Assembly: GCA_017406005.1 (NCBI GenBank)
Contig: JAFQZI010000087.1
Location: 1 to 35,238 of the forward strand
DNA length: 35,238 nucleotides
Source of the DNA: Oscillospiraceae bacterium
Lineage (GTDB): Bacteria; Bacillota; Clostridia; Oscillospirales; Oscillospiraceae
Direction: 5' to 3'
Positions 4,288-20,383 of the stretch are shown here, piece by piece. The notes beneath the pieces were generated by a model. It searched no databases. It saw nothing but the letters and a program-made list of their open reading frames with translations, and was not told where the DNA came from. A program made the translations under genes and the position numbers. Numbering within the stretch: the first letter of the stretch is position 1; each line of letters opens with the position of its first letter.

Positions 4288-6330
4288 ATGGCTTACACGG
4301 CATTGGAACAGATGAGGAAGGTAAACAAAGAAAGATTTGGAAGAGACCTCGGCCCGAAGCAACCGCCGCTCTACATCAACCGACATAACCGGAATGACCT
4401 GAAGTCGGCTGTTTTGCGGTTTATCCACAACAGTTGTGAAGGGCTTTGCTTTGACGACAAAAAAACGGAGGAAGAGAGAGATACGGGAAAATATCTCGGA
4501 AAAAGCCTTAAACCGAACCAGATTCCTTATAACATGGAGATGGATCTCAACAGGCTGTGCCTTGAAAAGGCATTAGAGAGATTCATCGATTCCGGCGTGG
4601 CAGAGGATGCCTATGCAGTGTATTACTGCTATCTGGAAATCTTCTTCGGAGAGTATGGAAGGTCTAAAAAAATGGTGGAGCTCCTGTCAGAATATGAAGC
4701 CAACGGAAGCTCCCTGCTGATGAAGCACCGGGATCACTATTCCCATTCCGTTTATGTGTTCGCCCTCGGCCTTGCCATCTATGAGACGAACGAAAAATAC
4801 CGGAAGGCTTTTAAGGAGTTCTATCATCTGAATGCGAATGAAAACAATAAGGAAGAAAGCTGTAAGGCAGCAAGCCTATTCCTCGAATACTGGGGGCTAA
4901 CGTCCCTTTTCCATGATATCGGATATCCTTTTGAACTGCCGTTCGAGCAGGTGCTGTCGTACTATGAAGTTAATAACGAGAACCGGGGAGAAAAGAAGCC
5001 GTTTCTTGCTTTCCACGGTATTGAGACAGTGACAAAGCTTCAGGAGAAGGACAAAAAAGAACTGGAAGACCTTTACCACAGACCCTTCAGGACTTCAAAT
5101 GAGCTCCTTGCTTACGATGTCACGCAGAAACTGGGAAGGGCATTTGGCTTTACCGAAGAATATATGCTGGATGTGATCAACCGTAAGCCAACAAAACCAG
5201 AAGAATTCGGATACTTTATGGATCACGCTTTCTTCAGCGCAACAAGGCTGTATCGTGAAATTGCCGGACTTGAAACGAAGAAACTCAATAAAATGCACGT
5301 GGATGCACTTTCCGCTATTCTTCTGCATAACAGCCTGTACAAATTCAAAATCTCTTTCTATAAAGACGATGAGAAGAAAAAAGAACCGCTCTGGGTTGAA
5401 CTGCATCCGCTGGCTTATTTGCTGATGCTCTGTGACGAGCTGCAGTGCTGGGACAGAACAGCCTACGGCAGAAATTCCCGCAAGGAGCTGCACCCGATGG
5501 CTGCTGACTTTGATTTTTCCTATAATTCGATTTCCGCTGTATATTATTATGACGAGGAAGAGCGTGAGAAAATAGAGGAATTTGAGGAAGAATATGAAGA
5601 GTGGGAGAAGAATCCCAAAACAAAAAAAGAGCCTCGGCTAAAGGCTTACAGTGATATGGCGGGGAAGAAACAAAGGTTTACTACAGACATTGAAAAGATT
5701 GTCAACACTTCAATCATTCCACTGACCATACACCCGAGTATGTGCAAGGTAAACCGGAAGAAAAAGCACACCTATCTGTCAGGGAGCAACTTCCTCCATT
5801 TATATGATTTCGCCGTTGCTCTTCACGGCAGAAGTATGCCCAAAGAAACAAAGACGGAGGAACTCGAGAAAAAGTTCCGGAGCGTTTCCCTCGAATACCA
5901 GCTTTCTACCCTTAACCGTGCACGGGACTTTGGCAGGTATCTGGATGCAATACGCTGTTTCTATACGGATAAACCGGTGGACTATGAGATGGTGACGGAA
6001 TTTACCCCAAGAGATGCCGCTGAGTTTGCACCCATGGAGCATGAGCGCTGGATTCGGGAACACCACGCCATGGGCTGGAGATACGGCAATGACTATGAAA
6101 CGCTGACTCTCGACCTTCCGGAGGAATTGCAGGCTGCGGAACGGAAAGCATTGCGGGAGCAGATGCGTATACACAAACTGGCAATGGATGGGAATCCGTC
6201 AAGTCAGCAAATCCGCAGGCATTATCTCGGGTTATCCCCCGAAGATCAGGACAAGGACTGGAAGCCATTCAACAAAATGCTGGAGCTCCTCAAAAAGTTC
6301 GATGGACTGAGAATCTATAGAATGGATTGA
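4288..6330 (+). CDS. HD-domain protein with C-terminal RyR domain
   Basis: This 680-aa protein joins an HD-type metal-dependent phosphohydrolase region to a C-terminal RyR domain. In the HD part, histidines lie in the KHRDHYSH stretch (about 146-153) and the HD doublet is at 209-210 (LFHDIGYP). More His/Asp motifs occur further on (MDHAFFSA, LLHNSLY). The last 95 residues contain MEHERWIREHHAMGWRYG, the signature of the RyR domain. In prokaryotes that domain occurs in nucleotide-centred conflict systems and is thought to bind a ligand. HD domains often hydrolyse cyclic or linear nucleotides, so a nucleotide-sensing hydrolase is plausible; the substrate is unknown. A ribosome binding site (AGGAGGG) supports the ATG. 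It opens the central cassette. Confidence 0.8.
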   Translation: MAYTALEQMRKVNKERFGRDLGPKQPPLYINRHNRNDLKSAVLRFIHNSCEGLCFDDKKTEEERDTGKYLGKSLKPNQIPYNMEMDLNRLCLEKALERFIDSGVAEDAYAVYYCYLEIFFGEYGRSKKMVELLSEYEANGSSLLMKHRDHYSHSVYVFALGLAIYETNEKYRKAFKEFYHLNANENNKEESCKAASLFLEYWGLTSLFHDIGYPFELPFEQVLSYYEVNNENRGEKKPFLAFHGIETVTKLQEKDKKELEDLYHRPFRTSNELLAYDVTQKLGRAFGFTEEYMLDVINRKPTKPEEFGYFMDHAFFSATRLYREIAGLETKKLNKMHVDALSAILLHNSLYKFKISFYKDDEKKKEPLWVELHPLAYLLMLCDELQCWDRTAYGRNSRKELHPMAADFDFSYNSISAVYYYDEEEREKIEEFEEEYEEWEKNPKTKKEPRLKAYSDMAGKKQRFTTDIEKIVNTSIIPLTIHPSMCKVNRKKKHTYLSGSNFLHLYDFAVALHGRSMPKETKTEELEKKFRSVSLEYQLSTLNRARDFGRYLDAIRCFYTDKPVDYEMVTEFTPRDAAEFAPMEHERWIREHHAMGWRYGNDYETLTLDLPEELQAAERKALREQMRIHKLAMDGNPSSQQIRRHYLGLSPEDQDKDWKPFNKMLELLKKFDGLRIYRMD

Positions 6331-6357
6331 AATGTTTTGCAAAAAGGAGATTCGGGA

Positions 6358-6828
6358 ATGGAAAGAGACTGGCTTTCTTTTCAACCTTCCAAGGCAACAG
6401 AGATCTATCCGGGGTTAATCATCGGAGGACTACGTAATCTTGAAGATATTCAAAGAATGAAGCCGGACGTGCTGGTACCTCTGGATCATCTACCCGGAGA
6501 TATCTGGGAGACAGGTTACCGAGGAGAAATCCTCTATTGCCCGATTTCTGATCGAGGTGTACTACCGCGGGATGTACTGAATCGCATAGTTGACATAATT
6601 ATAAAATGTCTTGAACAGGGGAAACGAACGGCTGTTTTCTGTATTGGCGGACACGGCCGGACCGGATACCTCACGGCATGTGTTCTGTACCGGTTGGGGA
6701 TCACGGATCCAATCACTTACCTGCGGAAGAATTACAGCATCCTCGCTGTGGAAACAGAGGAGCAGGAGGACGAGGTGCAGAAATACTGTAAAAAGCATAC
6801 AGCGAAGACCGAAGGCGGATTGAGATAA
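6358..6828 (+). CDS. Dual-specificity-type protein phosphatase
   Basis: A 156-aa cysteine-based phosphatase. The P-loop CIGGHGRTG (Cys95, Arg101) fits the CX5R catalytic motif of protein tyrosine and dual-specificity phosphatases, and Asp65 in CPISDRG is a candidate general acid. An upstream in-frame TTG at 6337 exists, but AAGGAG at 6344-6349 sits 8 bases before the ATG at 6358, so that start is preferred. It begins 27 bases after the HD-RyR gene and ends 4 bases before the nucleotidyltransferase gene. Two other phospho-signalling enzymes, a kinase and a metallophosphatase, are in the same cassette, so a regulatory role is more likely than a metabolic one. The substrate could be a phosphoprotein or phosphorylated RNA ends. 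Confidence 0.85.
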   Translation: MERDWLSFQPSKATEIYPGLIIGGLRNLEDIQRMKPDVLVPLDHLPGDIWETGYRGEILYCPISDRGVLPRDVLNRIVDIIIKCLEQGKRTAVFCIGGHGRTGYLTACVLYRLGITDPITYLRKNYSILAVETEEQEDEVQKYCKKHTAKTEGGLR

Positions 6829-6832
6829 AAAC

Positions 6833-7582
6833 ATGGACGGGAAGAAAAAAGAACAGATTGTGCTGCGCACGATGCAAAAGATTCAGGAGCGCTGTTATCC
6901 ACTACTGGTCGGCTATAGCGGCAGTATTGCTTACGGAACGAATCTACCGGGGTCCGACATAGATATCCGTGGGATCTTTCTGAACCCGCCGGAAGAATGG
7001 ATTGGATTGCAGGAGGACTCCGAACAGATCAGACTGGACGATTCCGACACGGTGGTTTACAGCCTCAAAAAGGCGATGAACCTGCTCTTGGCCTGCAATC
7101 CAAACATGATTGAGATCCTCGGGCTTCGACCGGAGCATATTCTTTTCTGTTCATCGGAAGGGAAGAGCATCCTCGACAATTCAAATGTTTTTCTTTCCCG
7201 GAAGGCAATTTTCACCTTCAATGGCTATGCCGTCAAACAGCGGCGACGTGTGGCGGCGCTTGTGGAGGAGAGGAATACTTCCCAAAAGGAAATCTCCAAA
7301 GACATGATGCACTTAATCCGACTCTATGCGATGGGCATAGAACTGCTGGAAACGAGCAGGGTTGTGACCTACCGAGAAAAGGAACATGACCTGCTGATGA
7401 AGATCCGAGGAGGAGAATACTGGGATAAAAAGAGAAAAGCACCAAGTTGGGAATATGAAAGACTGCTAGAAGACTATATGGGAGCTTTCAATAATGCGGC
7501 GCTTCGGACAAGGCTTCCTGCCGAACCGAACCGGGAGGCAGCCAATGAACTGACGATGGAGATCGTACGCCATTATTTGTAG
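6833..7582 (+). CDS. RlaP-type Pol-beta superfamily nucleotidyltransferase
   Basis: A 249-aa protein with the Pol-beta nucleotidyltransferase core: GYSGSIAYGTNLPGSDIDIR has the Gly-Ser pair at 30-31 and the metal-binding aspartates at 42 and 44. The whole pattern fits the family named RlaP (RNA ligase-associated Pol-beta; COG3541-like), predicted to act in RNA repair. No RNA ligase gene (RtcB, Rnl or T4-like) lies in this window. It is not a CD-NTase of the CBASS type: the YGTxxPxSDID arrangement and the size match COG3541. It sits tightly between the phosphatase gene and the 206-aa gene, so these are co-translated. The nearby tRNA-like Y RNA is an attractive substrate or cofactor, by inference only. 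Confidence 0.75.
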   Translation: MDGKKKEQIVLRTMQKIQERCYPLLVGYSGSIAYGTNLPGSDIDIRGIFLNPPEEWIGLQEDSEQIRLDDSDTVVYSLKKAMNLLLACNPNMIEILGLRPEHILFCSSEGKSILDNSNVFLSRKAIFTFNGYAVKQRRRVAALVEERNTSQKEISKDMMHLIRLYAMGIELLETSRVVTYREKEHDLLMKIRGGEYWDKKRKAPSWEYERLLEDYMGAFNNAALRTRLPAEPNREAANELTMEIVRHYL

Positions 7583-7591
7583 GGAGGGTTT

Positions 7592-8212
7592 ATGAGCGTA
7601 GGATGGCTGGGGTGTACCGTTGAGATCTATCTGCACTTTACAAAAGAAAAGCACGCCCGCTGGGCATACCATGTAGCAGAAGATATGATCAAACTGTTGT
7701 ATGCACCGACAGAACTGCCGTGGGTCCAGGAAGCTTCGAACCGTGCATCCCTCAGTGAGCGATACCTGAATTACCAGCAATACATCAAAGAGCTGGATCT
7801 TCATCCGGAACGTGACAGAAGACGATGGAAACACGATCTCTGCGCACTGGACTGGCTGGAACGCAGGCGAACCCATCTTATTATCGAACGCTGTGCGGAT
7901 ATTGCACGCACTTCAAATTTCGAAGGAAAAGAAGAATTCTTTCCGCAACTCTGCTTTGCTATTGCTCTGCGATTTCCGCAGGTGCCTTTTTCTGCAATCA
8001 GCCGCTATGAAATGATGGTGACAGGGAGTATCCAATGCGTGAAGGCAGTTTATGACGGATCTGTCATGCATGTGCAGGAAATATCCGGAGAACGACCTTT
8101 CAATGAAGATAACTGGAGCCGAGCAAAAGAATGGGATTATATTGCAGAAGATGGAGTCTTTACACAACAGAAACATAAAGGAGAACAGGCATGGAACTAT
8201 CCACGAGCATAA
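7592..8212 (+). CDS. Unrecognised 206-aa protein paired with the RlaP gene
   Basis: I do not recognise this protein. It has no signal peptide or membrane segment and is rich in charged residues and tryptophan. The N-terminal strand-like VEIYLHF and C-terminal ISRYEMMVTGSIQCVKAVYDG suggest an alpha/beta fold. A ferredoxin-like RNA-binding fold is one possibility, but I cannot show it. AGGGAGGG lies 5 bases before the ATG. The gene starts 9 bases after the nucleotidyltransferase gene and overlaps the kinase gene by 22 bases. Translation is therefore probably coupled, and the product may be a partner of RlaP. Confidence 0.7.
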   Translation: MSVGWLGCTVEIYLHFTKEKHARWAYHVAEDMIKLLYAPTELPWVQEASNRASLSERYLNYQQYIKELDLHPERDRRRWKHDLCALDWLERRRTHLIIERCADIARTSNFEGKEEFFPQLCFAIALRFPQVPFSAISRYEMMVTGSIQCVKAVYDGSVMHVQEISGERPFNEDNWSRAKEWDYIAEDGVFTQQKHKGEQAWNYPRA

Positions 8213-11200
8213 GCAATTCCATCAGTAAAGGCGAGGTTCAGGAAGAGTTTTCTCTCTCCCTTGCGGCGCTAGAGGATGCGAAGAACAGAAGACCGGAATC
8301 CATCTCCAATGAACAGATACAAAAAGGAGATAAGATCCTTGAAACCTATACCGTTCTGGATGAGGCGATCCATGGTGGCATGGGCAGTGTGTGGTGTGTT
8401 CATCATGAGAGCTGGAATGTTGATCTGGCGATGAAGCGCCCACAGCCAAGATTCTTTGCCGAAGGCAGCGATAGGCGGAAAGAGGAATTCATCAAAGAGT
8501 GCGAGAACTGGATCAACCTCGGCCTGCATCCAAATATCGTCTCCTGCTACTATGTGCGTGATATCGGCGGTGTGCCGACGATCTTTTCCGAATGGATGGA
8601 CAACGGCAGCCTGAAGGACCGCATTCAGGATGGGTCTCTTTATAAAGGTACCGAGAAAGAGGTACAAAAGAGAATTCTTGACATCGTTATCCAGGCAGCA
8701 CGAGGCCTTTCCTATTCCCATAAAAATAGCCTAATCCATCAGGACATGAAACCCGGCAACTTGCTTTTAACCAAAAAATGGGAGGCTAAGGTAGCGGACT
8801 TCGGCTTGGCGAAAGCACAGAGCCAGCTGTCAGATGCCAACACATCGGGCTCTTTGGGCTACACGCTTGCCTATTGCCCGAAGGAACAGGCGGAAGGAAC
8901 AGCTGCAGAGAAGTGGATGGACGTATACGCCTGGGGTCTTACCGTGCTGGAGATGTACGCAGGCAGGCGGCTCTGGAATACTGGTGCTGAGGCAAAGGAA
9001 CACTGCGGGGAATACTTTGATCAGTGCCGCATCCCACCTTCCACTGCTATACAAGAAGTGCTGAAGAAGGCACTGAATCGGGAAGACCTGACCTTTGATG
9101 TGCTCTTTCCTTCCCTAATGGAGATCTGGCAGGTACAGACCGGCTCGGCCTATCCGCGCCAGGAGACCCTTGCCGCCGGTGACACATCTGATAGCCTAAA
9201 CAACCGCGCTTTGAGTTTTCTTGATCTCGGGATGAAGGAAAAAGCAGCGGAATGCTGGGACTCGGCCCTGACACAGGATTCTGCCCATGTTCCAAGTGTT
9301 TACAATCAAGGGCTCTATCAGTGGAGAGGGGGAAGCATTTCCTCTCAGGAGATTCTGCGCCGAGTGCGGATGGCAGTGCAGACGCAGCCTCTGCCGTTTG
9401 AGTACCTGCAGAAGCAAATCCGCGCAGAGCAGGCGGATACGAAGCCGGTCCTGATCGAGAAAAGATTGGGATGGCAGTCCTGCGCTTTCCGCTCTGACGG
9501 TAGGCGCGTCTGGTCAGTTTCCAGTTTCGTTACCTGTTATGATGCCGAAACGTTGCAGATCCTTTATCAGCGGGAATGTGAGGGGAGCGGTAGTGATGCT
9601 TTCCTTTCTCCGGATGGGAAGTTTCTACTTTATCGTGTCACCAGCAAGGGGCCGGAGAAAGACAGACGCCTTCGCGTACTCGAAGCAGAGACGGGAAAGT
9701 TGCTTTCCATCCTGGAACAATCAGAACAGATCACAGCAAAGAAGGTCCGTTTTCACCCAGACAAAAGGCATTGCATTATTCTGGGCACCGGACGAACAGA
9801 GTACGCAACAGCCTGGAAGTACTTCCTGCAGAAATGGGATCTTCTCTCCGGGAAACAGGTGCTGGACATCGATCTGCGCTTCAAAGACATCAAACAGGCG
9901 CTGGGGATCGAACCGTTGGAATTGACAGTCCCGGCTGATATCTGCCTTACGCCGGACGGAAGTACTGTATATGCTGCAGTGAACTCAGGCAATACGTTTA
10001 TTGCCGCTTATGGCATACAGACCGGCGCTTTGCTAGGCCCGATTTATACAATCACCTTTTCAGTGGATGTGCTCTGTTTTTCACCGGACGGGCAGAAGCT
10101 CTATGCCGCAGGGAAAAAGGGCATCGCTGTCTGGGATGTTTCCACTCACCGTGGCAAAGAGTTTGAGGCGACTCTGAATGAGAATGCCGACATGCTGTTT
10201 TCTTCGGAGGGGGATAAGCTGTATGCCAGCGGACAGTACGGTGTAACCGTATGGAATACGGCGGATATGACCATGGATTTGTTGAGTGTGCCGGGAGGTG
10301 TAAGCAGGCTCTGGCTGGACGGAGACGGTTCGCATCTTATCAGCGCAGACCATAATGAAGACGGCGCTATTCGGCTCTGGGACCTGAAAACCGGCGCCTG
10401 TCTGCAAAGTTTTCAAGGACATAAAGGAAAGATTTGGGCAATCTCCGCAACGGAGGATCTCTCTTTCCTTCTCTCCCTCGGAGGAGACCGCAACCTTTTC
10501 AAATGGAATGCCCGTTCCCGGGTGCGTTATGCCCCCTGGGAGTTATGCCGCATGAAGACCTTTGAGGAGCAGCAGGCTCTGACGAAAGCGGTCAGTGATA
10601 CGAAGTGGAGCCTCTTCAATCTCGTCCATACCCCCGACAAGGTCGGACAGGCTATCACGGAGTTGGTTGCGGCGGAAAAGAAATACGGTCAGCATCTTTT
10701 TCTGGAAGTGCGCAGAGAGCTCATCAAAAGCTGCATTTCTAGCAAAGTGACGGACATATATGAGATGAGTAGCTTTCCTGTGGCGGATGAGTATTCGGGA
10801 GATTCCGGAGCGTATTCGCAGACTCCCTATCCGGTTCCCGGGTGCAATTACTGCGTAATCACGGAACCTGAGAGCAAGTATTTTTACATTTATTCAGAAG
10901 AAGGAAGAAGACGGGCAAAGCTGGATCTGCCACCGCATTTTTACGGTATTTCAAACCATTTATGTTTTTCAGGCTTTCATCTTTATGCCGCCGGAAGCGG
11001 TATAATCGAGATCTGGGATACAGCTCGCCCGGTTAAGATGGATAGTCTTTCAATCAGAGTACATGAGGCATTACCTTTTCCAGAAAATGGAAATGTAAAA
11101 ATTACGCTTAGTCCAGATGCCAGATTCCTTCTTTCTGCCTGGGATTCAGGTAATTTTTGTCTTTGGGAATCCAGCTCTTCATTCGGACTTGGACGCTATC

Positions 11201-12024
11201 ATAAACGCCGGGAGTGGAAGGCAGAGTCCGATGAGAATATCCGTCAGATTTCCTTTTCACCGGATGGGAAAACGGTTGGAATACTTGACGAAGCCGGCAA
11301 TTTGTCGGTCATGAATCCGTTTACCGGAGAAATTTTAAAGACGATTACGGAAAATCCGGAAGAAACGTATGACCTGGAAGAGGAAGACTTTGAGGATGAG
11401 AATCCGGAAGACTGGGAAGACTCGGAAGAGCCTTCCGTCATCCGGTTCTGCTTTACTCCGTCAGGAGATTATCTCTATGTCAGTGAGAAAGAGGAAGTCT
11501 CTATCTGGAATACAGGAACATGGGAAAAAGCAGGGTGCTTTCATAGCTATAAAGATGACTGCCGTGGTGATCTTTGCTTCAGTTCTGACGGTTCTCTCAT
11601 GGCAACATACGGGAACACAGGTGTGCGCATCTGGTCCGTTCCGGAGCACACGCTGATCCACGAACTAAAAGGTCTGACATCGCAGATTGATCCGGAAGAA
11701 GCCATCTTTCAAAAAATACTTGCCTTTTCGTCGGATGGCTGCATTCTGTACGTCGGAACCGGGAATTTCATGCATACCTTTGTCATCCGCCGGGAACTTA
11801 CGCCAAAGCCAAAGAAGATTGATTACGACTACCTGAAAAAAGTATATGGTGATCTGTTTGATGGGAAAAGAATCCCAACGTTTCAGTCGTCACGATGCCC
11901 GCAATGCGGAACCCACAGAGTCAGTGTCAGGCAATGGGATCGTGAGCATCAATTAGCCTACGTTTTGTGCGAAGAATGCGGCTGGGATGGCTGGAAAAAA
12001 TATGAACTGAAAGAACTGGAATAA
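8191..12024 (+). CDS. Ser/Thr protein kinase with WD40 propeller and zinc ribbon
   Basis: A 1277-aa soluble protein with three parts. The Hanks-type kinase (about 50-315) has the glycine loop GGMGSV (62-67), Lys82 in AMK, the catalytic loop HQDMKPGN (183-190, with HRD changed to HQD) and DFG (203-205), so it looks active. A helical TPR-like stretch (about 331-400) leads to a long WD40-like region (about 420-1215). Its repeated FSPDGKxLY and IWDxxTG blades suggest two propellers or one large one. An acidic insert (about 1060-1085) is rich in Glu and Asp. The C-terminus is a zinc ribbon with two Cys-x2-Cys pairs (CPQC, CEEC). Unlike many PknB kinases it has no transmembrane segment or PASTA domain. 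GGAGAA precedes the ATG. Confidence 0.9.
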   Translation: MELSTSISNSISKGEVQEEFSLSLAALEDAKNRRPESISNEQIQKGDKILETYTVLDEAIHGGMGSVWCVHHESWNVDLAMKRPQPRFFAEGSDRRKEEFIKECENWINLGLHPNIVSCYYVRDIGGVPTIFSEWMDNGSLKDRIQDGSLYKGTEKEVQKRILDIVIQAARGLSYSHKNSLIHQDMKPGNLLLTKKWEAKVADFGLAKAQSQLSDANTSGSLGYTLAYCPKEQAEGTAAEKWMDVYAWGLTVLEMYAGRRLWNTGAEAKEHCGEYFDQCRIPPSTAIQEVLKKALNREDLTFDVLFPSLMEIWQVQTGSAYPRQETLAAGDTSDSLNNRALSFLDLGMKEKAAECWDSALTQDSAHVPSVYNQGLYQWRGGSISSQEILRRVRMAVQTQPLPFEYLQKQIRAEQADTKPVLIEKRLGWQSCAFRSDGRRVWSVSSFVTCYDAETLQILYQRECEGSGSDAFLSPDGKFLLYRVTSKGPEKDRRLRVLEAETGKLLSILEQSEQITAKKVRFHPDKRHCIILGTGRTEYATAWKYFLQKWDLLSGKQVLDIDLRFKDIKQALGIEPLELTVPADICLTPDGSTVYAAVNSGNTFIAAYGIQTGALLGPIYTITFSVDVLCFSPDGQKLYAAGKKGIAVWDVSTHRGKEFEATLNENADMLFSSEGDKLYASGQYGVTVWNTADMTMDLLSVPGGVSRLWLDGDGSHLISADHNEDGAIRLWDLKTGACLQSFQGHKGKIWAISATEDLSFLLSLGGDRNLFKWNARSRVRYAPWELCRMKTFEEQQALTKAVSDTKWSLFNLVHTPDKVGQAITELVAAEKKYGQHLFLEVRRELIKSCISSKVTDIYEMSSFPVADEYSGDSGAYSQTPYPVPGCNYCVITEPESKYFYIYSEEGRRRAKLDLPPHFYGISNHLCFSGFHLYAAGSGIIEIWDTARPVKMDSLSIRVHEALPFPENGNVKITLSPDARFLLSAWDSGNFCLWESSSSFGLGRYHKRREWKAESDENIRQISFSPDGKTVGILDEAGNLSVMNPFTGEILKTITENPEETYDLEEEDFEDENPEDWEDSEEPSVIRFCFTPSGDYLYVSEKEEVSIWNTGTWEKAGCFHSYKDDCRGDLCFSSDGSLMATYGNTGVRIWSVPEHTLIHELKGLTSQIDPEEAIFQKILAFSSDGCILYVGTGNFMHTFVIRRELTPKPKKIDYDYLKKVYGDLFDGKRIPTFQSSRCPQCGTHRVSVRQWDREHQLAYVLCEECGWDGWKKYELKELE

Positions 12025-12163
12025 TCTGAATTCTACAAAATAAGACCAACTATATGTGACCCTGCATAGGAAAAAACAGGAAGAAAATACTCCTACATCT
12101 GACAAAAGAAAGGAAATAGCCTCTTATGCCAGATGCTCGATGGATGGATATAAGGAGGAAACC

Positions 12164-14392
12164 TTGGAACTGCAATATAAGACCCGCGGGATGACAAATC
12201 CGCAGGGCAAGCCACGGGTGTATTTTGCCTGCCGGCAGGAAGACTTTAAAACGGCTTTCCCACTTGTTTCCGAAGATCTCCTGCGATATGCCAACTGTGC
12301 CATCTGGTATGCTCCTGATCAGGAAGAGGCAGTGGATCTCGAAGAGCTTTATGCCTGTCTGGACGAGATGCAACTTGTGGTGCTTGCCGTTACATCTGAA
12401 ATGATCCATACAGACAACCGAGCGAAAGATGTTGTGCTGCGGTATGCCTATGAGCATCATATTCCAATTCTGCCTATTTTGATGGAAACAGGACTAGCCC
12501 GGGAATTTAACAAGGCGACCAATATTCCAATCCAGGTCGTGAACCGCATGGTCAATGACCCCACTGCTACTCCGTATGAGGAAGTGCTGGAAACCTATTT
12601 GAAATCCGTTCTTATCGGTGACGAGCTGGCTGTAAAAGTACGTGACGCTTTTGACGCGTATGTTTTTCTGAGTTACCGGAAGAAGGATCGCAGATATGCA
12701 CAGAGACTGATGCACCTCATCCATGAAAATAAACAGTTTCAGAATATCGCTATCTGGTACGATGAGTTTTTGATACCGGGGGAAAAATATAATAATGATA
12801 TTCAGGCTGCATTTACCAAAAGCAAACTATTTGCTATGGCAGTTACACCGCATCTGGAAGAGGAAAAAAATTATGTTATGAGGGTGGAATATCCTTTGGC
12901 ACGGGATCGAGAGATCACGGATCGTGATTTTCAGATCGTGCCGGTGGAAATGTATGATGTGAATGCCCCTGAATGGCGGATCGATCAAAACAACCTGCAA
13001 GAGTTCAAATACAAGGCGATCCCAAAACTGCAGGATGAACATCGGGAATCCGAAATGAATCAGGCGTTTCTGGATGCACTTGACCGGATTGCAAAAAAGG
13101 AAAATGACGGTTCGGCGCAGCACCGGTTTTTTATCGGCCTCGCATATCTCTGCGGGATTGATGTGGAGAAGAACGCTGACAGAGCCCTGAAGCTGATCAT
13201 CTCTGCTGCAGAGGACAGCAGCCCCTGTTTTGATGCGACCGAAAAGCTGGCAGACATGTACCTGACCGGCGATGGGGTGGAAAGAAACACAGAGAAAGCC
13301 ATCGAATGGCAGAGAAAACTCTGTGATCAATATTTGACGGAATATAAAAAGCATTCTTCTGCAGACGAGCACAAAGGCTTCGGGACGAAGTGTTTCAGGG
13401 CACTGATCCGACTTTCCGATATCCTGAAAGACGCGGGAAGGATCTCCGAAGCTACCGACACTGCGGAAGAAGCACTCAGCATGACGCAAAATCTGACAAA
13501 TGAAGTAGGCAGGCGGGAAGCAGAACGAGATACGGCTGTGATCAGCACACGACTTGGCAGTATTTATCAATCACTGGGAGATCTTAAAGGGGCAGAGAAG
13601 TGTTTTCTTCAGGCAGCGGAAGCCTATGAAAGGCTCTCCCGTGAAATCGGCACGGCACGGGCACGGAGAGATTTATCTATTGCGAAAGAGCGACTGGGAG
13701 ATATTACCAGAAAACAGGACAATATCCATTCAGCCCTGGAGTATTACAAGACGGTATACGATATCCGCAGTGAACTCGCGGAAGGGAGTGAATCGCTTCG
13801 AGCGAAAAGAGACCTTTCCGCAGTTCTTACAAAGCTCGGCAATGTGTATAAGAGCAGTAATCTCACACTTGCAAGAGAATATACGGACAGGGCATATAAG
13901 ATCGATAAAGCAATCGCTGAGGAGGAAAGAACGGATCAGGCATGGGATGACCTCGGAGTCAGCCTCGTAAAGCAGGGAGATCTGTTCAAAGAGGAAAAAC
14001 AGTATGAAGCGGCTGCGGAAAAATATCGAAAAGCCAGGGGAATCTTCAAATCCCTGGCCGGCAAACGGGATTCTGTGCAATATCGGAAACACTATGCGTC
14101 AAGCTGCGAGAAGCTCGCCGGTGTAGAGAAACGCGTTATGAGTTCCGATGAAGTCATCAAACTGTTTGATGAGTCGGTTTTTCTCCGGCAAAAACTGTAT
14201 TACGGCTCGCCTTCCGATGAGACTGCCCATGAACTGGCGGTAGCAACGTTTAATTACGGCGCATTCATAGAGAGTAAGGAATTGATAGAAGAAGCCGTGA
14301 GACAGTGGGAAGATCTTTGCAGGACAAATCCAAAATATGAAAAATATCGCGCCAAAGCGGAAAAAGCATTGAAACAATTACAGGGAGACTAA
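12164..14392 (+). CDS. Tandem TIR-domain protein with Sel1/TPR repeats
   Basis: The frame is open from a GTG at 12056, but no ribosome binding site precedes that codon or the ATG at 12140. A strong AAGGAGG stands 7 bases before an in-frame TTG at 12164, giving 742 aa. The N-terminal domain (about 18-130) is TIR-like (VYFACRQEDF). The second (about 163-290) is a clearer TIR: AYVFLSYRKKD, then IWYDEFLIPGEKY and a glutamate in MRVEYPLA (about 242) where TIR NADases keep their catalytic Glu. Sel1 and TPR-type helical repeats fill the remaining 400 residues (for example LGSIYQSLGDLKGAEKCF). TIR-TPR proteins usually act as NAD-consuming effectors or adaptors. The Y RNA lies just downstream. Confidence 0.85.
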   Translation: MELQYKTRGMTNPQGKPRVYFACRQEDFKTAFPLVSEDLLRYANCAIWYAPDQEEAVDLEELYACLDEMQLVVLAVTSEMIHTDNRAKDVVLRYAYEHHIPILPILMETGLAREFNKATNIPIQVVNRMVNDPTATPYEEVLETYLKSVLIGDELAVKVRDAFDAYVFLSYRKKDRRYAQRLMHLIHENKQFQNIAIWYDEFLIPGEKYNNDIQAAFTKSKLFAMAVTPHLEEEKNYVMRVEYPLARDREITDRDFQIVPVEMYDVNAPEWRIDQNNLQEFKYKAIPKLQDEHRESEMNQAFLDALDRIAKKENDGSAQHRFFIGLAYLCGIDVEKNADRALKLIISAAEDSSPCFDATEKLADMYLTGDGVERNTEKAIEWQRKLCDQYLTEYKKHSSADEHKGFGTKCFRALIRLSDILKDAGRISEATDTAEEALSMTQNLTNEVGRREAERDTAVISTRLGSIYQSLGDLKGAEKCFLQAAEAYERLSREIGTARARRDLSIAKERLGDITRKQDNIHSALEYYKTVYDIRSELAEGSESLRAKRDLSAVLTKLGNVYKSSNLTLAREYTDRAYKIDKAIAEEERTDQAWDDLGVSLVKQGDLFKEEKQYEAAAEKYRKARGIFKSLAGKRDSVQYRKHYASSCEKLAGVEKRVMSSDEVIKLFDESVFLRQKLYYGSPSDETAHELAVATFNYGAFIESKELIEEAVRQWEDLCRTNPKYEKYRAKAEKALKQLQGD

Positions 14393-14437
14393 AAACCGAA
14401 TTTATATGACATCGGGAAGACAGCCTGCATTTTTTCG

Positions 14438-14466
14438 TTGACGCAAGTTTAGCATTGTGATACCAT
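14438..14466 (+). promoter_or_regulatory. Candidate promoter of the Y RNA
   Basis: TTGACG (14438-14443), a 17-bp spacer and TACCAT (14461-14466) lie in the gap after the TIR-TPR gene. Transcription would begin near 14473, about 65 bases before the Y RNA stem. The leader contains a small hairpin (TTGCC/GGCAA around 14503-14516). The same promoter may serve the TerD-like gene by read-through. Confidence 0.5.
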
Positions 14467-14538
14467 AAACCTGTAGCTAGTGACGCTTATTTCCTGTTAT
14501 GTTGCCTTGCGGCAATTTGAGTAGTGTCACGATTCACA

Positions 14539-14682
14539 GGGCGGATAGCTAATCAGGCTTACTTCAGAATTACCAATCCGGAGACGGGGGTTCGACTCCT
14601 CCCGGCGCAATGCGCTGTAGTTCAACGGCAGAACGTCGGGACCTTCAAGCCTGATCATTTCATCCGCCTTTTTGTTGTTTTC
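14539..14682 (+). ncRNA. YrlA-type Y RNA (tRNA-like, permuted)
   Basis: This 313-base gap between genes holds a strongly folded RNA. An outer stem pairs GGCGGAT (14540-14546) with ATCCGCC (14662-14668). An internal loop follows, then a perfect 9-bp stem, ATCAGGCTT (14552-14560) with AAGCCTGAT (14647-14655). Inside is a tRNA-like module in permuted order: T arm GGGGG-TTCGACT-CCTCC (14586-14602), acceptor 3' strand CGGCGCA (14603-14609), one base, acceptor 5' strand TGCGCTG (14611-14617), TA, then D arm GTTC-AACGGCA-GAAC (14620-14634). The acceptor strands pair over their length, so the tRNA ends are fused into a hairpin and the anticodon arm becomes the long stem. A T-run (14669-14682) should end transcription. 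This is the architecture of bacterial YrlA Y RNAs, which bind Ro60/Rsr and mimic tRNA. Confidence 0.8.
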
Positions 14683-14705
14683 AATGGAAACCGGGAGGGC
14701 TCAAA

Positions 14706-16787
14706 ATGGATTCTAAAGAATATCCCATTCTTTGTCCGATCTATCAGGAATACCTGTTTGATAAGCATATTCTGGTCGGAGATGAGATCAACCTAAAGGA
14801 GGCTTCGGAGGCTTTCTCTACGGTGTTCGCCCTTGCAAGGCTTTTCGGCATCCGCATCACATCCGGACAGAGGCTTGCCCATAAGGAACTGATTGAACTT
14901 GCTTCGAGGAAACTCGGGGAAAACGTTCCCCTGCCCTTTTACCGAGGCTTCCCGAAGAGCGTGCGGGAGCTGACACGCTTCCAACTCCTTTTTGACCAGC
15001 TTCTGGAATACTATGTTTCTTACGGCATGAATGATTTCAGCGGAGAAGGGCATTCCGTCTTCGAAAGGGACTTTGAGCGTGCGGCCTTTCGGGAAGACGC
15101 CAGAATTCTGGATTTCAGAATCGTTTCTTTGGAGAAAGCAAAAAAGTTCCTGGCAGATTCAGCAGACGCGTTGCTGCGTTCTACACGCCCGTTGCGGAAG
15201 GATCAGTTTGAAATGGTGAAAGCCTTTGTGCAGGAGGAAGATACTCCTGAGATTTCCCGCTGCGCCTGTAAGGACACTGCCATTAAACTTCTTCTCGCGA
15301 CAAAAGATCTCTCCTGGCTTCGATTTCTCCATCTTTCGGACACTATTGCTGTTGTGGATGAACTCAATTATGAATGGAATAAGAGCACAAATCTGAGAAA
15401 GCTGAATCTGAAGAATCAGCAGCGAAAGTTTATCACTCAGATTCTGGACCGTTTTTTTGAGAACAGCAATCCTTGCACAAAAGCCTGCTATGAAAAAAAG
15501 GCACTCTGGTGCGGGCTGCTGCATCATATCCATTACCAGCCGAAAAACGAAGCTGCTGCACAGTTTGTACAGAGAATGCGTGGCAAAGAGAACCACTCCG
15601 CTTACTCCGCTTTTGAAGGCGCTATGTCGGAAGGGGAAATCGAAGAAGCAGTTTCCGTTCTGTTGAAGGAGAAGGGGAGCGGGATCCTGCTTCGGAATCT
15701 AAACTATCTTCTCAGCCGCTGCCGAACAAAAGCGGAAGTAGAGGGTGTTCTTTCCCGGATTGATTCAGAAAACACGATTGTACTACTGCAGCTTTATTTT
15801 GAATATGCGCTCTCCAGCCCGGCTGAGCGAAGGATTTTCCGCTTCGCAAAGCATTCGATGCTGTATAAGCATACGGAGACAGATGAAGAATTGGCACGCA
15901 GAAAAACCGTCCTCCCGCGCACGATTCGGATAACCGCACAGGAAATGATTGAGAAAAAGCTCAGAAATCTGCTGAAAAACCGACTCAGGAGGGTTTGTTA
16001 TGACCCGCAACTTAACGGGCTTGCCATTCCGCTACAGGAAGGCACATCCCTCAGCGGGTTCGGTGCTTTACCGAGAGGATCGCGATTGCCACTGCCGGAC
16101 GGGAAGATTATCCGTGCCTTTACCTATTGGGAAAAGGTAAACGATATCGACCTCAGCGTAATCGGCATTTGCCGGGATGGATCCAGAAGAGAGTTCTCCT
16201 GGCGAACCATGGCATCTTCCCAGAGCACTGCCATTGCTTTTTCCGGCGATGTTACACGCGGATATAACGGCGGTTCAGAATTCTTTGATATCGATATTGT
16301 TCAGTTTTGCGAAAAATACCCGGATGTTCGTTATCTTGTTTTCTGTGACAATGTTTTTTCTGGCAGCCCGTTTAAAGACTGCATCTGCACCGCAGGCTAT
16401 ATGATGAGGGATCGTTTTGATTCCGGAGAAATCTTTGAGCCGAAAACGGTTCATACCTCTTATCGGATCGATTGCGACAGCACCATTGCTATGCTCTTTG
16501 CCTTTGATCTGGATACAAATGAATTTGTCTGGCTCAACCTGGCAGTAAAAGGACGGACGAGGATCGCCGGTACACAGGAGATCCAATCCATGCTGCGTTA
16601 CCTTGAATGTGTTAAGGTATTGCCTTTCCGCTCGCTGATTGAAATGATGGCGCAGGAAATGACGGAGGATCTTGAAGAAGCTGATCTGGTTATATCTGAC
16701 AGGCAGATAGATGTTCTGCCTGAGATCCCGGTTATTCACAGCTATGACCTGGATAAAATGGTCGCTTTGATCAACAGCCGGGGATAA
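14706..16787 (+). CDS. TerD-like protein of the MXAN_6230/SCO0854 type
   Basis: A 693-aa soluble protein. The C-terminal part (about 458-616) reads as a TerD-like beta-sandwich: GSRLPLPDGK, NDIDLSVIG, FSGDVTRG, SEFFDIDI, VRYLVFCDNVFSG and FEPKTV match, from memory, the family databases call MXAN_6230/SCO0854. The first 455 residues are mostly helical and partly conserved in that family. The RING finger implied by the family name is missing: the C-terminus has no cysteine cluster. TerD domains bind calcium and belong to stress and phage-defence networks. A ribosome binding site (GGGAGGG) precedes the ATG. The start lies 24 bases after the Y RNA terminator, so the RNA and the protein are genetically linked. 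Confidence 0.7.
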   Translation: MDSKEYPILCPIYQEYLFDKHILVGDEINLKEASEAFSTVFALARLFGIRITSGQRLAHKELIELASRKLGENVPLPFYRGFPKSVRELTRFQLLFDQLLEYYVSYGMNDFSGEGHSVFERDFERAAFREDARILDFRIVSLEKAKKFLADSADALLRSTRPLRKDQFEMVKAFVQEEDTPEISRCACKDTAIKLLLATKDLSWLRFLHLSDTIAVVDELNYEWNKSTNLRKLNLKNQQRKFITQILDRFFENSNPCTKACYEKKALWCGLLHHIHYQPKNEAAAQFVQRMRGKENHSAYSAFEGAMSEGEIEEAVSVLLKEKGSGILLRNLNYLLSRCRTKAEVEGVLSRIDSENTIVLLQLYFEYALSSPAERRIFRFAKHSMLYKHTETDEELARRKTVLPRTIRITAQEMIEKKLRNLLKNRLRRVCYDPQLNGLAIPLQEGTSLSGFGALPRGSRLPLPDGKIIRAFTYWEKVNDIDLSVIGICRDGSRREFSWRTMASSQSTAIAFSGDVTRGYNGGSEFFDIDIVQFCEKYPDVRYLVFCDNVFSGSPFKDCICTAGYMMRDRFDSGEIFEPKTVHTSYRIDCDSTIAMLFAFDLDTNEFVWLNLAVKGRTRIAGTQEIQSMLRYLECVKVLPFRSLIEMMAQEMTEDLEEADLVISDRQIDVLPEIPVIHSYDLDKMVALINSRG

Positions 16788-16794
16788 TACGGCG

Positions 16795-17511
16795 ATGACT
16801 TATGTAATCAGTGATCTTCACGGAAGGATTGACTTTTACCATGAAATACTGGAAAAGATTTCCTTTTGTGCAAAAGATAATCTATACATTCTCGGAGACA
16901 TCGGAGACAGGAACGAGGGTGGCATTCAGATCTTCAAGGAGATTATGGATGAACCTAACATCCATATGCTGTTGGGAAACCATGAGCAAATGATGCTTAA
17001 TGCGATTCTGTATCCGAGGGCAATCAGCTTAAACGGGAATGAGACCAACGAGCAGCTATGGTTTCGAAATGGTGGCAGCATAACAAAAATGGAGTTCTTT
17101 GCTGAACCAAAGGTACTGCAGGAAAAAATCCTGCTGTATGTCGAAAAACTGCCTCTAAACATCGATTTAGAAATCAACGGGACTAAGTTTCTCCTGGTAC
17201 ACGGGCTGCCAACCTGTATGTTTGATAAATACGGCAGGGATTATGACGATGTCGCGGAGTTCGCGGTTTGGGAGCGGATTGAAGGCTGGATGAGGGTGGA
17301 GTTTCCGGCAGATATTATGATTTGCGGGCATACACCAACCTGGTATTACCGGGACGAAAACCCGATGAAGATCTGTAGTGTTCGGGAAAACGTCTATGAC
17401 ATTGACTGTGGATGCGCAAGCGGAGAAGAATACGGAGGACGGCTTGCTTGCCTGAGACTGGAAGATATGAAGATTTTCTATACAGGAGAAAAATCCGTAA
17501 GCTCGGAATAA
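16795..17511 (+). CDS. PP1-like metallophosphatase
   Basis: A 238-aa calcineurin-type phosphoesterase with all metal-binding motifs: DLHG (7-10), GDIGDRN (34-40), GNHE (61-64), VHG with His136 and GHTPT (178-182). This set matches bacterial PP1/PPP-type serine/threonine phosphatases of the PrpA/PrpE or Lambda type, although the usual DRG is DRN here. A relation to diadenosine tetraphosphatases of the same superfamily cannot be excluded. It begins 7 bases after the TerD-like gene. With the kinase upstream it could form a reversible phosphorylation pair; this is inferred from the neighbourhood. Confidence 0.85.
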   Translation: MTYVISDLHGRIDFYHEILEKISFCAKDNLYILGDIGDRNEGGIQIFKEIMDEPNIHMLLGNHEQMMLNAILYPRAISLNGNETNEQLWFRNGGSITKMEFFAEPKVLQEKILLYVEKLPLNIDLEINGTKFLLVHGLPTCMFDKYGRDYDDVAEFAVWERIEGWMRVEFPADIMICGHTPTWYYRDENPMKICSVRENVYDIDCGCASGEEYGGRLACLRLEDMKIFYTGEKSVSSE

Positions 17512-17553
17512 AAGAATGGTCTTTATCATAAATTTTTTGGGAGGCAGCTATGC

Positions 17554-19191
17554 ATGAGACGTAAAAGAGAATATTATGACATTTTTATAAGCTATCGCCG
17601 TTCAAACGGATGGGATACGGCAAAACATTTAAGGGATATTCTTGTCGAAAAAGGATACAGTGTTTTTTTCGATGTTGACAGCCTAAGAAACGGCGACTTC
17701 AATATGGCACTGCTTGAGCAAATTGAAAACTGTAAGGATTTTATTATCATTCTTTCAGAAAATTCGCTGGATCGGTGTCAAAATGAAGGAGACTGGGTCA
17801 GGACAGAGCTAGCTTATGCTCTGAAAGCAGGAAAAAACGTAATACCCATCAAAAGTTCCAAGTTTCATTTCCCTGATAATCTACCGGAAGATATTGAGGC
17901 TGTTCGAAAGAAAAATGCTGTAATTACATCATATGATTATTTCGAAAGTATGGTGCAAAAACTTATTTCTTTTCTGATCAGCAAACCGAAAAAGAAGCCA
18001 TGGGTCAAGCTTGGCATAGGTATATTAGCTGTAGCAGTAATAGCATTGCTGGGTGTTGTATTTCTGAGCAGAAATACAGGAAAAGATGGTGTAATACTGC
18101 CACCAATATCAGATTCAGCTGTGACGGCCATTGCCACTTCCTCTCCAGTTGCTGAATCCACGGCAGAGATATCTGTTCCCACTGTAACACCTGCAGTGAC
18201 ACCTACACCGTTGCCAACCGTAAAGCCGGAGGACATAGATGCTTCCGGACAGAAAGCAGTGAATTACCTGTCAAAACGGGTGGAAGAGAGTTGCCCGATT
18301 ACAGTTTATGATCCAGAAGGATCGGCGGCAGAGGAGCTTGGGACTATCTATAACAATGCAGCTGCGGCGCTTGCTCTGCTTGCGGACAATGAAAAGAACA
18401 AAAATCACAGTGACAGTGATCTTAAGAAAATTATTGATATCCTTGCAGAACAGGTGAATGACGGATCGATCTTAACTCCGGAGATGGATACGGGGAGCCT
18501 GGCGGCTGCGTCTGTGGCACTGATGAAATATGACAGTGCAAAGACATCCTTTGCCTGTGTGCGGGCAGCACAGAAGATCCTGGACTGGATAATCGAAAAT
18601 CGAAAAAGTGAGAGCGGGTTTTACACGAATAATTCTCTGGGCAATAGGGCTACAGCGGAAAACCTGTGGTTAATTGCTGCATTCAACATGGTTTCAGAAA
18701 AAACAGGAAACGCCGGTTATGCGGAAGCAGCCCAAAGCGCAGAAGTGTTTGTACAGTCAATGCGGTCATCAGACGGAACGTTTTATCTTGCCGGAGATGC
18801 AAAAAACGACAACGGAAATTCCGGGCTTATTTCCACTGAAGTGCAGGCGCTGGCAGCAATGGTGATGAAGGATCGGACAGGGCTTGCAAAGGCAGCAGCC
18901 ATGTGCGGAAAAAACGGAGGGTTTATGCCGGATTCTCTTTCCGATGGGGATATCAGCACAGAGAGTACGTTGCTGATGGTAGTTGCATTTCAGAGCATGG
19001 GAATGAAGCAGGAGGCGGCACAGGCTATAGCTGCAGCATATCAATACCAGAGAGAAAACGGCAGCCTCCCGGAAGCAGGCATTGCTCCCTATACTGACGG
19101 ACAGGAGAAAAACCATCTTAATCAGGCAAAGACATCTGCGACGGCATGGTATGCAATTGCAGCAGAGGAATATAATCCGTTTATGAAATAA
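17554..19191 (+). CDS. Membrane-anchored TIR protein with extracytoplasmic alpha-toroid
   Basis: A 545-aa protein with an N-terminal TIR domain (about 6-140: YDIFISYRRSNGWDTAKHL, FFDVDSLRNGDF, and Glu85 in DWVRTELAYAL at the catalytic position). One transmembrane helix (151-171) follows, preceded by the basic KPKKKPW, so the TIR should be cytoplasmic. A Pro/Thr-rich stalk (about 185-227) leads to a 310-residue helical domain outside the cell. That domain shows alpha-toroid features (repeated helix pairs, NLWLIAAFNM, TEVQALAAMV, TAWYAIA), as in the prenyltransferase/squalene cyclase and glycosidase-type toroids. Its ligand is unknown. The design resembles a receptor: an external sensor linked to an internal NAD-hydrolysing effector. 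GGGAGG precedes the ATG. The next gene encodes a secreted version of the outer domain. Confidence 0.85.
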   Translation: MRRKREYYDIFISYRRSNGWDTAKHLRDILVEKGYSVFFDVDSLRNGDFNMALLEQIENCKDFIIILSENSLDRCQNEGDWVRTELAYALKAGKNVIPIKSSKFHFPDNLPEDIEAVRKKNAVITSYDYFESMVQKLISFLISKPKKKPWVKLGIGILAVAVIALLGVVFLSRNTGKDGVILPPISDSAVTAIATSSPVAESTAEISVPTVTPAVTPTPLPTVKPEDIDASGQKAVNYLSKRVEESCPITVYDPEGSAAEELGTIYNNAAAALALLADNEKNKNHSDSDLKKIIDILAEQVNDGSILTPEMDTGSLAAASVALMKYDSAKTSFACVRAAQKILDWIIENRKSESGFYTNNSLGNRATAENLWLIAAFNMVSEKTGNAGYAEAAQSAEVFVQSMRSSDGTFYLAGDAKNDNGNSGLISTEVQALAAMVMKDRTGLAKAAAMCGKNGGFMPDSLSDGDISTESTLLMVVAFQSMGMKQEAAQAIAAAYQYQRENGSLPEAGIAPYTDGQEKNHLNQAKTSATAWYAIAAEEYNPFMK

Positions 19192-19210: not shown

Positions 19211-20383
19211 ATGAAAACCGGAGATCTGAAACGATTCCTGGCGGCTCTTCTTGCAGCAGTTCTTGCTGTTTGCCTGCCGGTTTCTGCCATGGCAGACGAA
19301 GGACATGAGAAGGCAAAAGATGCAGCTGTCAGCTATCTGAAAGCATCGATTGCAGATAAATGCCCGATTGTAACCTATGAGACGGAAGAGCCTCTACTTT
19401 CGGTGTCATCCTACACCTATGAGAGTGCACTGGCTGCACTCGCCCTGATGTCAGAGGGAGAGTTCGCAGACGCGGCAAGAATTCTCGATGGTTTTGCTGA
19501 TGGAATGAAAGCAGATGCAGAGTTTAATGACAGGCTCCGCAATGCTTATATGGCTGGAAATGCCTCAACGCTCCCGGGCTACTGGAACAATGAGCAGGAA
19601 CAGTGGGTTCAGGATGCCTACCAGGTAGGAACCGGCACAAAAAGTTCCTGTGTGGCAGCTGTAGCATTGCTGACATATCACAAAACGATCCCAAATGAGA
19701 GTTATCTGAACACGGCTATGACCGGGATCAACTGGATCCTTGCTAACTGCCAGGACGGAACTTCAGGTTTTACCTCAGGATATACAGGCTGGAAAAACGC
19801 TGACGCATTTACCGATCTTACGTATAAATCAACATCAGATAATCTATGGATGGCAGCAGCCTGCAAAATGCTTGCAGATGCTACCGGATGGAGTAAGTAT
19901 GAAGAAGCGGCATCTTCAGCCCGGCGGTTTGCCACAGAGACAATGTATTCTGCTGGAGACAGCAGATTTTTCCAGGGAACGGCAGAGGACGGGGCAACAC
20001 CTGTCACCAATCTTGTGCTGACAGATGTGCAGGCACTGGCAGAACTCTGCCTGAAAAATGATTCGGGAATGGACAACATTGCAATGTGCCATACCAATGA
20101 AGGCGGATATTCCTTTGATAATTCCAACACGGACGGCTCCTGGCTCGAGGGCACCGCAATAGCAGCACTTGCCCTGAAAGAAATCGGAGAAACAGAAAAA
20201 GCTGGAACCGCTCTTTCAGTGTTAGAAAAGAACCAACTCCCATCGGGGTCTTTCCCAGAAGCAAGCGTTCCAGAACTGAAAACGGGAGAAGAGGACAGAA
20301 TCATCAGAAACTTACCATCGGTTGCGCCATGTGCGTGGTTTATCCTTGCGGTAAATGACTTCAATCCATTTGATGGAGCATAA
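19211..20383 (+). CDS. Secreted alpha-toroid paralogue of the TIR receptor's outer domain
   Basis: A 390-aa protein with a signal peptide (about 1-28, ending AMA before DE) and no membrane anchor. The mature part matches the outer domain of the preceding TIR protein along its length: KCPIVTYE versus SCPITVYD near the start, DNLWMAAACKM versus ENLWLIAAFNM, TDVQALAEL versus TEVQALAAM, and the closing CAWFILAVNDFNPF versus TAWYAIAAEEYNPF. It is about 50 residues longer inside the toroid, with inserts around residues 110-145. A gene duplication followed by loss or gain of the TIR-membrane part explains this. It may act as a ligand carrier, decoy or co-receptor. The gene starts 19 bases after its partner with a GAGGAGG ribosome binding site. 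Confidence 0.85.
   Translation: MKTGDLKRFLAALLAAVLAVCLPVSAMADEGHEKAKDAAVSYLKASIADKCPIVTYETEEPLLSVSSYTYESALAALALMSEGEFADAARILDGFADGMKADAEFNDRLRNAYMAGNASTLPGYWNNEQEQWVQDAYQVGTGTKSSCVAAVALLTYHKTIPNESYLNTAMTGINWILANCQDGTSGFTSGYTGWKNADAFTDLTYKSTSDNLWMAAACKMLADATGWSKYEEAASSARRFATETMYSAGDSRFFQGTAEDGATPVTNLVLTDVQALAELCLKNDSGMDNIAMCHTNEGGYSFDNSNTDGSWLEGTAIAALALKEIGETEKAGTALSVLEKNQLPSGSFPEASVPELKTGEEDRIIRNLPSVAPCAWFILAVNDFNPFDGA

Follow-up and report, generated by a model that had tools for sequence, protein, structure and literature searches.

The contig examined here, from an Oscillospiraceae bacterium (GenBank assembly GCA_017406005.1, contig JAFQZI010000087.1; 35,238 nucleotides (nt), hereafter the window), raises the question of what an RNA built on the plan of bacterial YrlA does, and with which protein, in a genome in which no TROVE match was found (assembly 92.88% complete). 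Y RNAs, with their tRNA-mimicking heads, have so far been tied to Ro60/TROVE proteins. The RNA, termed Y element 2, lies directly upstream of the gene for P0001, a protein with a TerD domain, and is composed of the following parts.

14540..14668, + strand: Y element 2, a YrlA-type RNA with a permuted tRNA head (feature-based scanner score 60; Rfam model RF02553, 35.5 bits; covariation)
14540-14546/14662-14668, + strand: stem 1, GGCGGAT/ATCCGCC, 7 bp, read from the sequence
14547..14551, + strand: 5′ side of the internal loop, AGCTA, conserved in aligned relatives (alignments A2 and A3)
14656..14661, + strand: 3′ side of the internal loop, CATTTC; AATATC or GATATC is common in relatives
14552-14560/14647-14655, + strand: stem 2, ATCAGGCTT/AAGCCTGAT, 9 bp, read from the sequence
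14559..14565, + strand: TTACTTC motif at the top of stem 2, which adds to the scanner score but is not a requirement
14586..14602, + strand: T arm, with T stem 14586-14590/14598-14602 and T loop TTCGACT (helix 3 of the covariation analysis)
14603-14609, 14610 and 14611-14617, + strand: acceptor 3′ strand, linker A and acceptor 5′ strand, forming seven pairs with one G-T (helix 4)
14620..14634, + strand: D arm, with D stem 14620-14623/14631-14634 (helix 5)
14669..14682, + strand: T-rich run directly after stem 1, a possible transcript end judging from the sequence

The original prediction had read this stretch as a tRNA turned inside out (T arm, acceptor 3′ strand, one base, acceptor 5′ strand, D arm), closed by a 7-bp acceptor stem with one G-T and held on a two-part stem of 7 and 9 bp. 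That plan was borne out in every part, with the tRNA-like portion at 14586-14634, as was the expectation that tRNA scanners would overlook it, since ARAGORN called no tRNA in the window. When the YrlA covariance model was run over the region, as had been proposed, RF02553 matched positions 14554-14656 over the full model with 35.5 bits (E 2.4e-6; cmscan, 321 nt searched). The gathering score of 69 was not reached, which explains why the whole-window scan lists nothing. A terminator scan, which permits loops of 3-8 only, reported none.

The fold energy of element 2 (z = -3.64) was equalled by none of 200 shuffles. Its minimum-energy fold contains the two outer helices and is missing the tRNA-like arms, which therefore rest on comparison with relatives. 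In 39 permuted-tRNA homologues (alignment A3, drawn from 43 permuted elements, with the second element of L018 and those of L032, L076 and L083 left out), the 30 pairs of the structure were paired in 97.3% of cases and 24 of them changed on both sides, the kind of compensatory change that had been set beforehand as a test of the prediction. Those 30 pairs were also recovered by RNAalifold, which had no structure as input. The fair test here is the acceptor helix, because the scanner had picked the outer helices for their pairing and did not score the acceptor; it was 97.4% paired, with double changes at six of its seven pairs. Elements with a short loop and no tRNA part behaved likewise: in 48 of them (alignment A2, from 66 short elements, longer loops and near-duplicates having been left out by hand), 13 of 14 pairs changed on both sides, with 238 double-changed cells against 78 expected, a value reached in 0 of 500 shuffles. 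The invariance of the AGCTA loop is partly a matter of selection, since AGCT was required by the scanner. By anatomy and covariation, element 2 is thus a Y RNA-type molecule, a classification that leaves very little room for doubt.

Element 2 is not alone, although the original prediction mentioned neither a second element nor a link with the P0001 gene. The scanner returned exactly two matches above 40 in the window, with scores of 54 and 60, and the first of these, element 1, ends where element 2 begins, base 14540 being common to both.

14438..14466, + strand: promoter-like site just upstream of element 1, TTGACG-17-TACCAT with TG before the second hexamer, matching the consensus at 9 of 12 positions
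14470..14540, + strand: Y element 1, with no tRNA part (scanner score 54; covariance model R1, 50.3 bits, element 1 being itself a row in the R1 alignment)
Parts of element 1: stems CCTGT/ACAGG and GTGACGC/GTGTCAC, an internal loop of AGCTA and GATTC, the motif TTATTTC and a short hairpin loop

Element 1 has the same AGCTA loop as element 2, its TTATTTC resembles TTACTTC, and a small hairpin replaces the tRNA head. R1 was built from short elements, element 2 being too long for it, and in this genome it matched in one place, element 1. Promoter-like sites numbered two in 381 nt against 0.5 expected by shuffling, a consensus match and not evidence of function.

A search with P0001 brought 80 loci from genome contigs, with 37-86% identity and with titles naming mostly Lachnospiraceae and other Clostridia of rumen and gut, plus a few Chloroflexi, Bacilli, Planctomycetia and Atopobiaceae. 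At scanner scores of at least 45, there were 128 matches in 84 loci (both strands) as opposed to one in the same sequences reversed; at 40 or above, 152 as opposed to nine. Element counts per locus and upstream counts use a threshold of 42, at which 139 elements were found in 75 of the 84 loci, 137 of them on the gene's strand, with a few weak ones inside genes; at this threshold a few of the matches may be due to chance, and at least four of the six plus-strand matches outside the upstream stretch look like it. Of the 76 loci with at least 300 nt of upstream sequence, 67 have an element on the same strand as the gene and no more than 1500 nt ahead of it, at a median distance of 59 nt (L016, L031 and L075 offer only 221, 60 and 4 nt). 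Elements in L053, L058 and L067 were missed by the scanner and seen only by eye or in a relaxed scan; none was seen in L029, L038, L055 and L050 (masked bases).

Counted over all 80 loci, 125 elements in 68 loci lay within those 1500 nt. Their heads fall into several types on common stems: 67 are short loops without a tRNA part, 43 are tRNA-like with the T arm first, six have the T arm last (canonical order) together with, by eye, an anticodon-like arm, seven have a T arm only and two are of other form. The longest array, in L035 (4484-5900), consists of seven tandem Y elements in which permuted and canonical-order tRNA heads are mixed; ARAGORN calls two of the canonical-order ones tRNAs of undetermined type. 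Elsewhere, the head at L018 5822-5968 looks, by eye, like a permuted class II tRNA that has a long variable arm, and the permuted element at L032 427-621 has a 147-nt loop with, by eye, a large insertion between the acceptor strands. Relatives of element 2 scored 31.1-49.3 bits against the YrlA model in seven of eight loci searched, and at the gathering score none of seven other loci gave a YrlA match.

Gene and RNA also occur together at the level of genomes. P0001 occurs in four of 99 relatives, which are also the four with R1, gene and RNA being on the same contigs; among 341 genomes of the class, the two with P0001 are the same two with R1. The genome of the window is counted in both sets, and absences of R1 are weak, with at most 50 candidates (99 relatives) or 14 candidates (341 class genomes) scored per genome. 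In contrast to the RNAs, the near neighbour genes rarely or never recur beside homologues of P0001: in a tblastn search of 100 loci (83 bacterial, nine viral and eight phage or plasmid records), the metallophosphatase matched in four and the kinase-WD40 gene in one, while neither TIR gene matched in any, be it the adjacent TIR-TPR gene or the one downstream. The HD/RyR-like, phosphatase, RlaP and 7592 genes likewise matched none of the 100 loci; these lie so far off that they were hardly tested, since no locus extends beyond 6-8 kb from the gene and many contigs end sooner. The conserved unit is therefore the gene together with its RNAs.

That unit also occurs on viral contigs. Homologues of P0001 are encoded on nine contigs from IMG/VR (17.6-164 kb), and R1 matches upstream in all nine, 27 times in total; about seven of these contigs are independent, L097/L098 and L091/L094 giving the same matches. 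Remote relatives of P0001 were found in phage RpAliso, with two YrlA-like matches just upstream (42.3 and 34.7 bits), and in phage RcXuper, with one (40.7 bits). A tRNA nucleotidyltransferase or nucleotidyl transferase lies near the remote relative in two phages that also have YrlA-like RNAs, and a permuted tmRNA adjoins the RNAs and the P0001 relative in both RpAliso (L132 2802-3023) and RcXuper (L135 3259-3561). Further remote relatives stand near tRNAs and RtcB in phage Weasels2 and near rtcR on a Variovorax plasmid. No YrlA match with E up to 0.1 was found in the Weasels2, Variovorax, Streptomyces, LpeD, Niallia or Deinococcus loci.

The protein of this unit is encoded as follows.

14706..16787, + strand: P0001 gene, 693 amino acids (aa), helical part plus TerD domain; candidate Y RNA-binding protein
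16086..16592, + strand: TerD domain of P0001, aa 461-629

A TerD fold was found by VIA-align in the C-terminal part of the predicted P0001 model, which places the protein among TerD proteins. Among the 50 entries listed by the same program, no more than eight exceeded 165 aligned residues (271-316), all of them Ro60/TROVE entries, suggesting that the helical part may adopt a Ro-like fold, with the TerD domain where the vWA domain stands in Ro60/Rsr (TROVE plus vWA). Support for this fold comes from one of two programs. With Foldseek, a search using the complete model brought no significant match and did not find Ro60. At the sequence level, P0001 has no TROVE match and no detectable relation to TROVE (Pfam and hhalign comparison), no vWA in Pfam, and no match below E 1 to PDB sequences by phmmer or profile search; TROVE-like motifs picked out by eye in parts of P0001 were not borne out by hhalign. 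Residues 293-620 do match the MXAN_6230/SCO0854 family RING domain proteins (NCBIfam NF041916, E 2.5e-34), with a score of 118.6 where the cut-off is 600; a RING domain was found in the Streptomyces and Variovorax relatives and not in P0001. Homologues were aligned from 77 of the 80 loci together with P0001 (alignment A1; L002-L004 unused), and a trimmed set retained 57 of these 77 (alignment A5). L045, L070 and L080 were left out of A1 for the one, one and seven stop codons in their translated stretches, which may reflect decayed genes or sequencing errors; the match length in L080 is not a multiple of three.

Compared with Rsr-bound YrlA (RF02553), the RNAs of the window family have the same two helices around an asymmetric internal loop, the T arm, the swapped acceptor strands and the D arm; they differ in the AGCUA/AAUAUC type of that loop, in forming tandem arrays and in heads that may be permuted, canonical or missing. 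Since no TROVE match was found and the linked gene is P0001, element 2 is better called YrlA-like or Y RNA-type than a member of the Rsr-bound YrlA family. The YrlA-type reading of the original prediction thus stands as to plan and covariation, with the qualification that the RNA is one of two tandem elements and that the usual TROVE/Ro60 partner was not found in the genome. The literature describes bacterial Y RNAs as bound by Ro-type proteins, modified by tRNA enzymes and in contact with PNPase (PMC8394870), and a Ro60-related phage protein together with a remark that phages with YrlA are reported (PMC7765460).

The probable explanation, in our assessment, is that small Y RNAs and a Ro-like TerD protein, P0001, form a ribonucleoprotein (RNP) engaged in tRNA damage control. 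Elements 1 and 2 would be made as small Y RNAs beside the gene behind them, and P0001, whose helical repeats would resemble those of Ro60 and whose TerD domain stands where Ro60 has vWA, would bind the two-part stem through the AGCUA/AAUAUC internal loop and UUACUUC. The head would then protrude and mimic a tRNA. Either it would serve a tRNA-handling enzyme as tether or gate, or it would be a decoy that diverts tRNA-cleaving enzymes; in this way the RNP would join tRNA damage control. Several RNAs with different heads at one locus could provide one protein with different partners. The data show the architecture of the RNAs, their covariation and tandem arrangement, their linkage to the gene, their joint occurrence with it and their presence on viral contigs; the Ro-like fold, the binding and the role in tRNA damage are inferred. 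The TTACTTC motif of three of the four TROVE-linked Y RNAs and the RNA-repair genes near remote relatives also speak for the explanation.

A variant of this explanation, doubtful though not far-fetched, puts the weight on the decoy: the head would be a lure for anticodon nucleases or toxins in phage-host conflict and not a tether in an RNP machine, with P0001 as chaperone. It fits the presence of gene and RNAs on viral contigs, of which four were scanned with ARAGORN and gave 16, 4, 27 and 5 tRNA genes, so that two of the four are rich in them, as well as the acceptor stem, which varies strongly among the heads of permuted elements, and the TIR, kinase and RlaP genes of the window. However, anticodon nucleases usually cut the anticodon arm, which the permuted heads do not have, more than half of the elements upstream of the gene (67 of 125) have short loops without any tRNA part, and neither of the window's TIR genes turned up beside homologues in the 100 loci.

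Improbable, in turn, is a role of the elements as cis-acting leaders, in which P0001 would bind its own mRNA leader (or the elements would be attenuators) and tRNA likeness would let the state of tRNA regulate the gene. Their position directly upstream on the gene's strand and the T run after stem 1 would be expected of leaders; up to seven different elements in one locus would not, nor would an element just downstream of the gene, as in L021 and L051, the change from permuted to canonical to absent heads, or the two viral contigs with elements among many tRNA genes.

Still less credible is a classical YrlA that acts in trans with a TROVE/Rsr protein unseen in the assembly, even though the plan and the Rfam match are those of YrlA and a TROVE gene may be missing from an assembly of this completeness. 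TROVE was found in 6 of 299 genomes of the phylum, and four of the six TROVE loci (L086, L087, L089 and L090) hold the four YrlA-like RNAs detected there. These score 27.9-39.9 bits, all below the gathering score, so that this cut-off does not separate the groups here and the RF02553 model seems not to capture Y RNAs from this branch of the tree. They match the window RNA in plan, in score range and in one motif close to the upper end of stem 2, which reads TTACTTC in three of the four and TACTTC in L090. By eye, however, they are without the AGCTA/AATATC internal loop, the loop of the window RNA being another, and R1 gave no match in the six TROVE loci against matches in all nine viral contigs with P0001 homologues; with no TROVE found in the genome, this explanation was rejected. 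Finally, a circularly permuted tRNA gene, whose halves would be cut out and joined into a working tRNA-Gly, can be dismissed almost entirely: the order is permuted and the halves of element 2 are closest to tRNA-Gly(tcc) (score 29 versus 21 for the next, among tRNAs from 30 of the genome's 49 tRNA loci), but the sequence has no intact anticodon arm, RNAalifold found no such helix in the 39 relatives, the outer helices are conserved by covariation, and the stems are the same in relatives whose heads have canonical order, just a T arm or no tRNA part at all.

The surroundings of the RNAs were also considered. They lie within a cluster of signaling and RNA-repair-like genes (4288-19191) encoding a protein with a weak RyR match, a dual-specificity phosphatase, an RlaP nucleotidyltransferase, a kinase with WD40 repeats, a TIR-TPR protein, a metallophosphatase and a TIR protein. 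The last (17554-19191) combines TIR with a membrane-like stretch and shares by eye a similar repeat-like C-terminal part with the protein at 19211-20383. In the rsr-yrlBA-rtcBA operon of Salmonella, as described in PMC7790460, a Y RNA and a Ro-type protein stand near RNA-repair genes. In contrast, no RtcB match was found among 17 open reading frames of the window compared with Pfam or in the whole genome, and RlaP lies about 7 kb upstream of the Y RNAs. RlaP was found in three of five genomes with the pair of gene and RNA: only in this window is it close to the pair, while in G050 some 28 kb separate the two and in G013 it lies on a different contig. RtcB was found in three of five as well, never on the contig of the pair. 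A setting among RNA-repair genes is thus no constant feature here.

YrlA RNAs and their tRNA likeness were already known; what makes the present case interesting is that the RNAs form arrays, mix the orders of their heads and are carried on viral contigs. Burroughs and Aravind (2016) reportedly surveyed RNA-repair systems with Y RNAs and a tRNA-like RNA, a survey that may touch this family; within a partial coverage of the literature, no title or abstract was found that deals with Y RNA arrays and a TerD protein. We lean, by a small measure, toward a second, TROVE-independent class of Y RNP, in which a Ro-like ring with a TerD domain would be served by up to seven Y RNAs on a common stem, with heads in permuted or natural order, as a tRNA-damage or tRNA-conflict module of gut and rumen Clostridia and large phages. 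One protein with several Y RNAs and variable heads offers a natural set of variants for separating the role of the stem from that of the head, and the viral contigs, some of them rich in tRNA genes, point to conflict over tRNA as one of its settings. Should the fold match prove right, a TerD domain can be combined with a Ro-like ring, and the TerD proteins, which are poorly understood, would thereby be connected to RNA.
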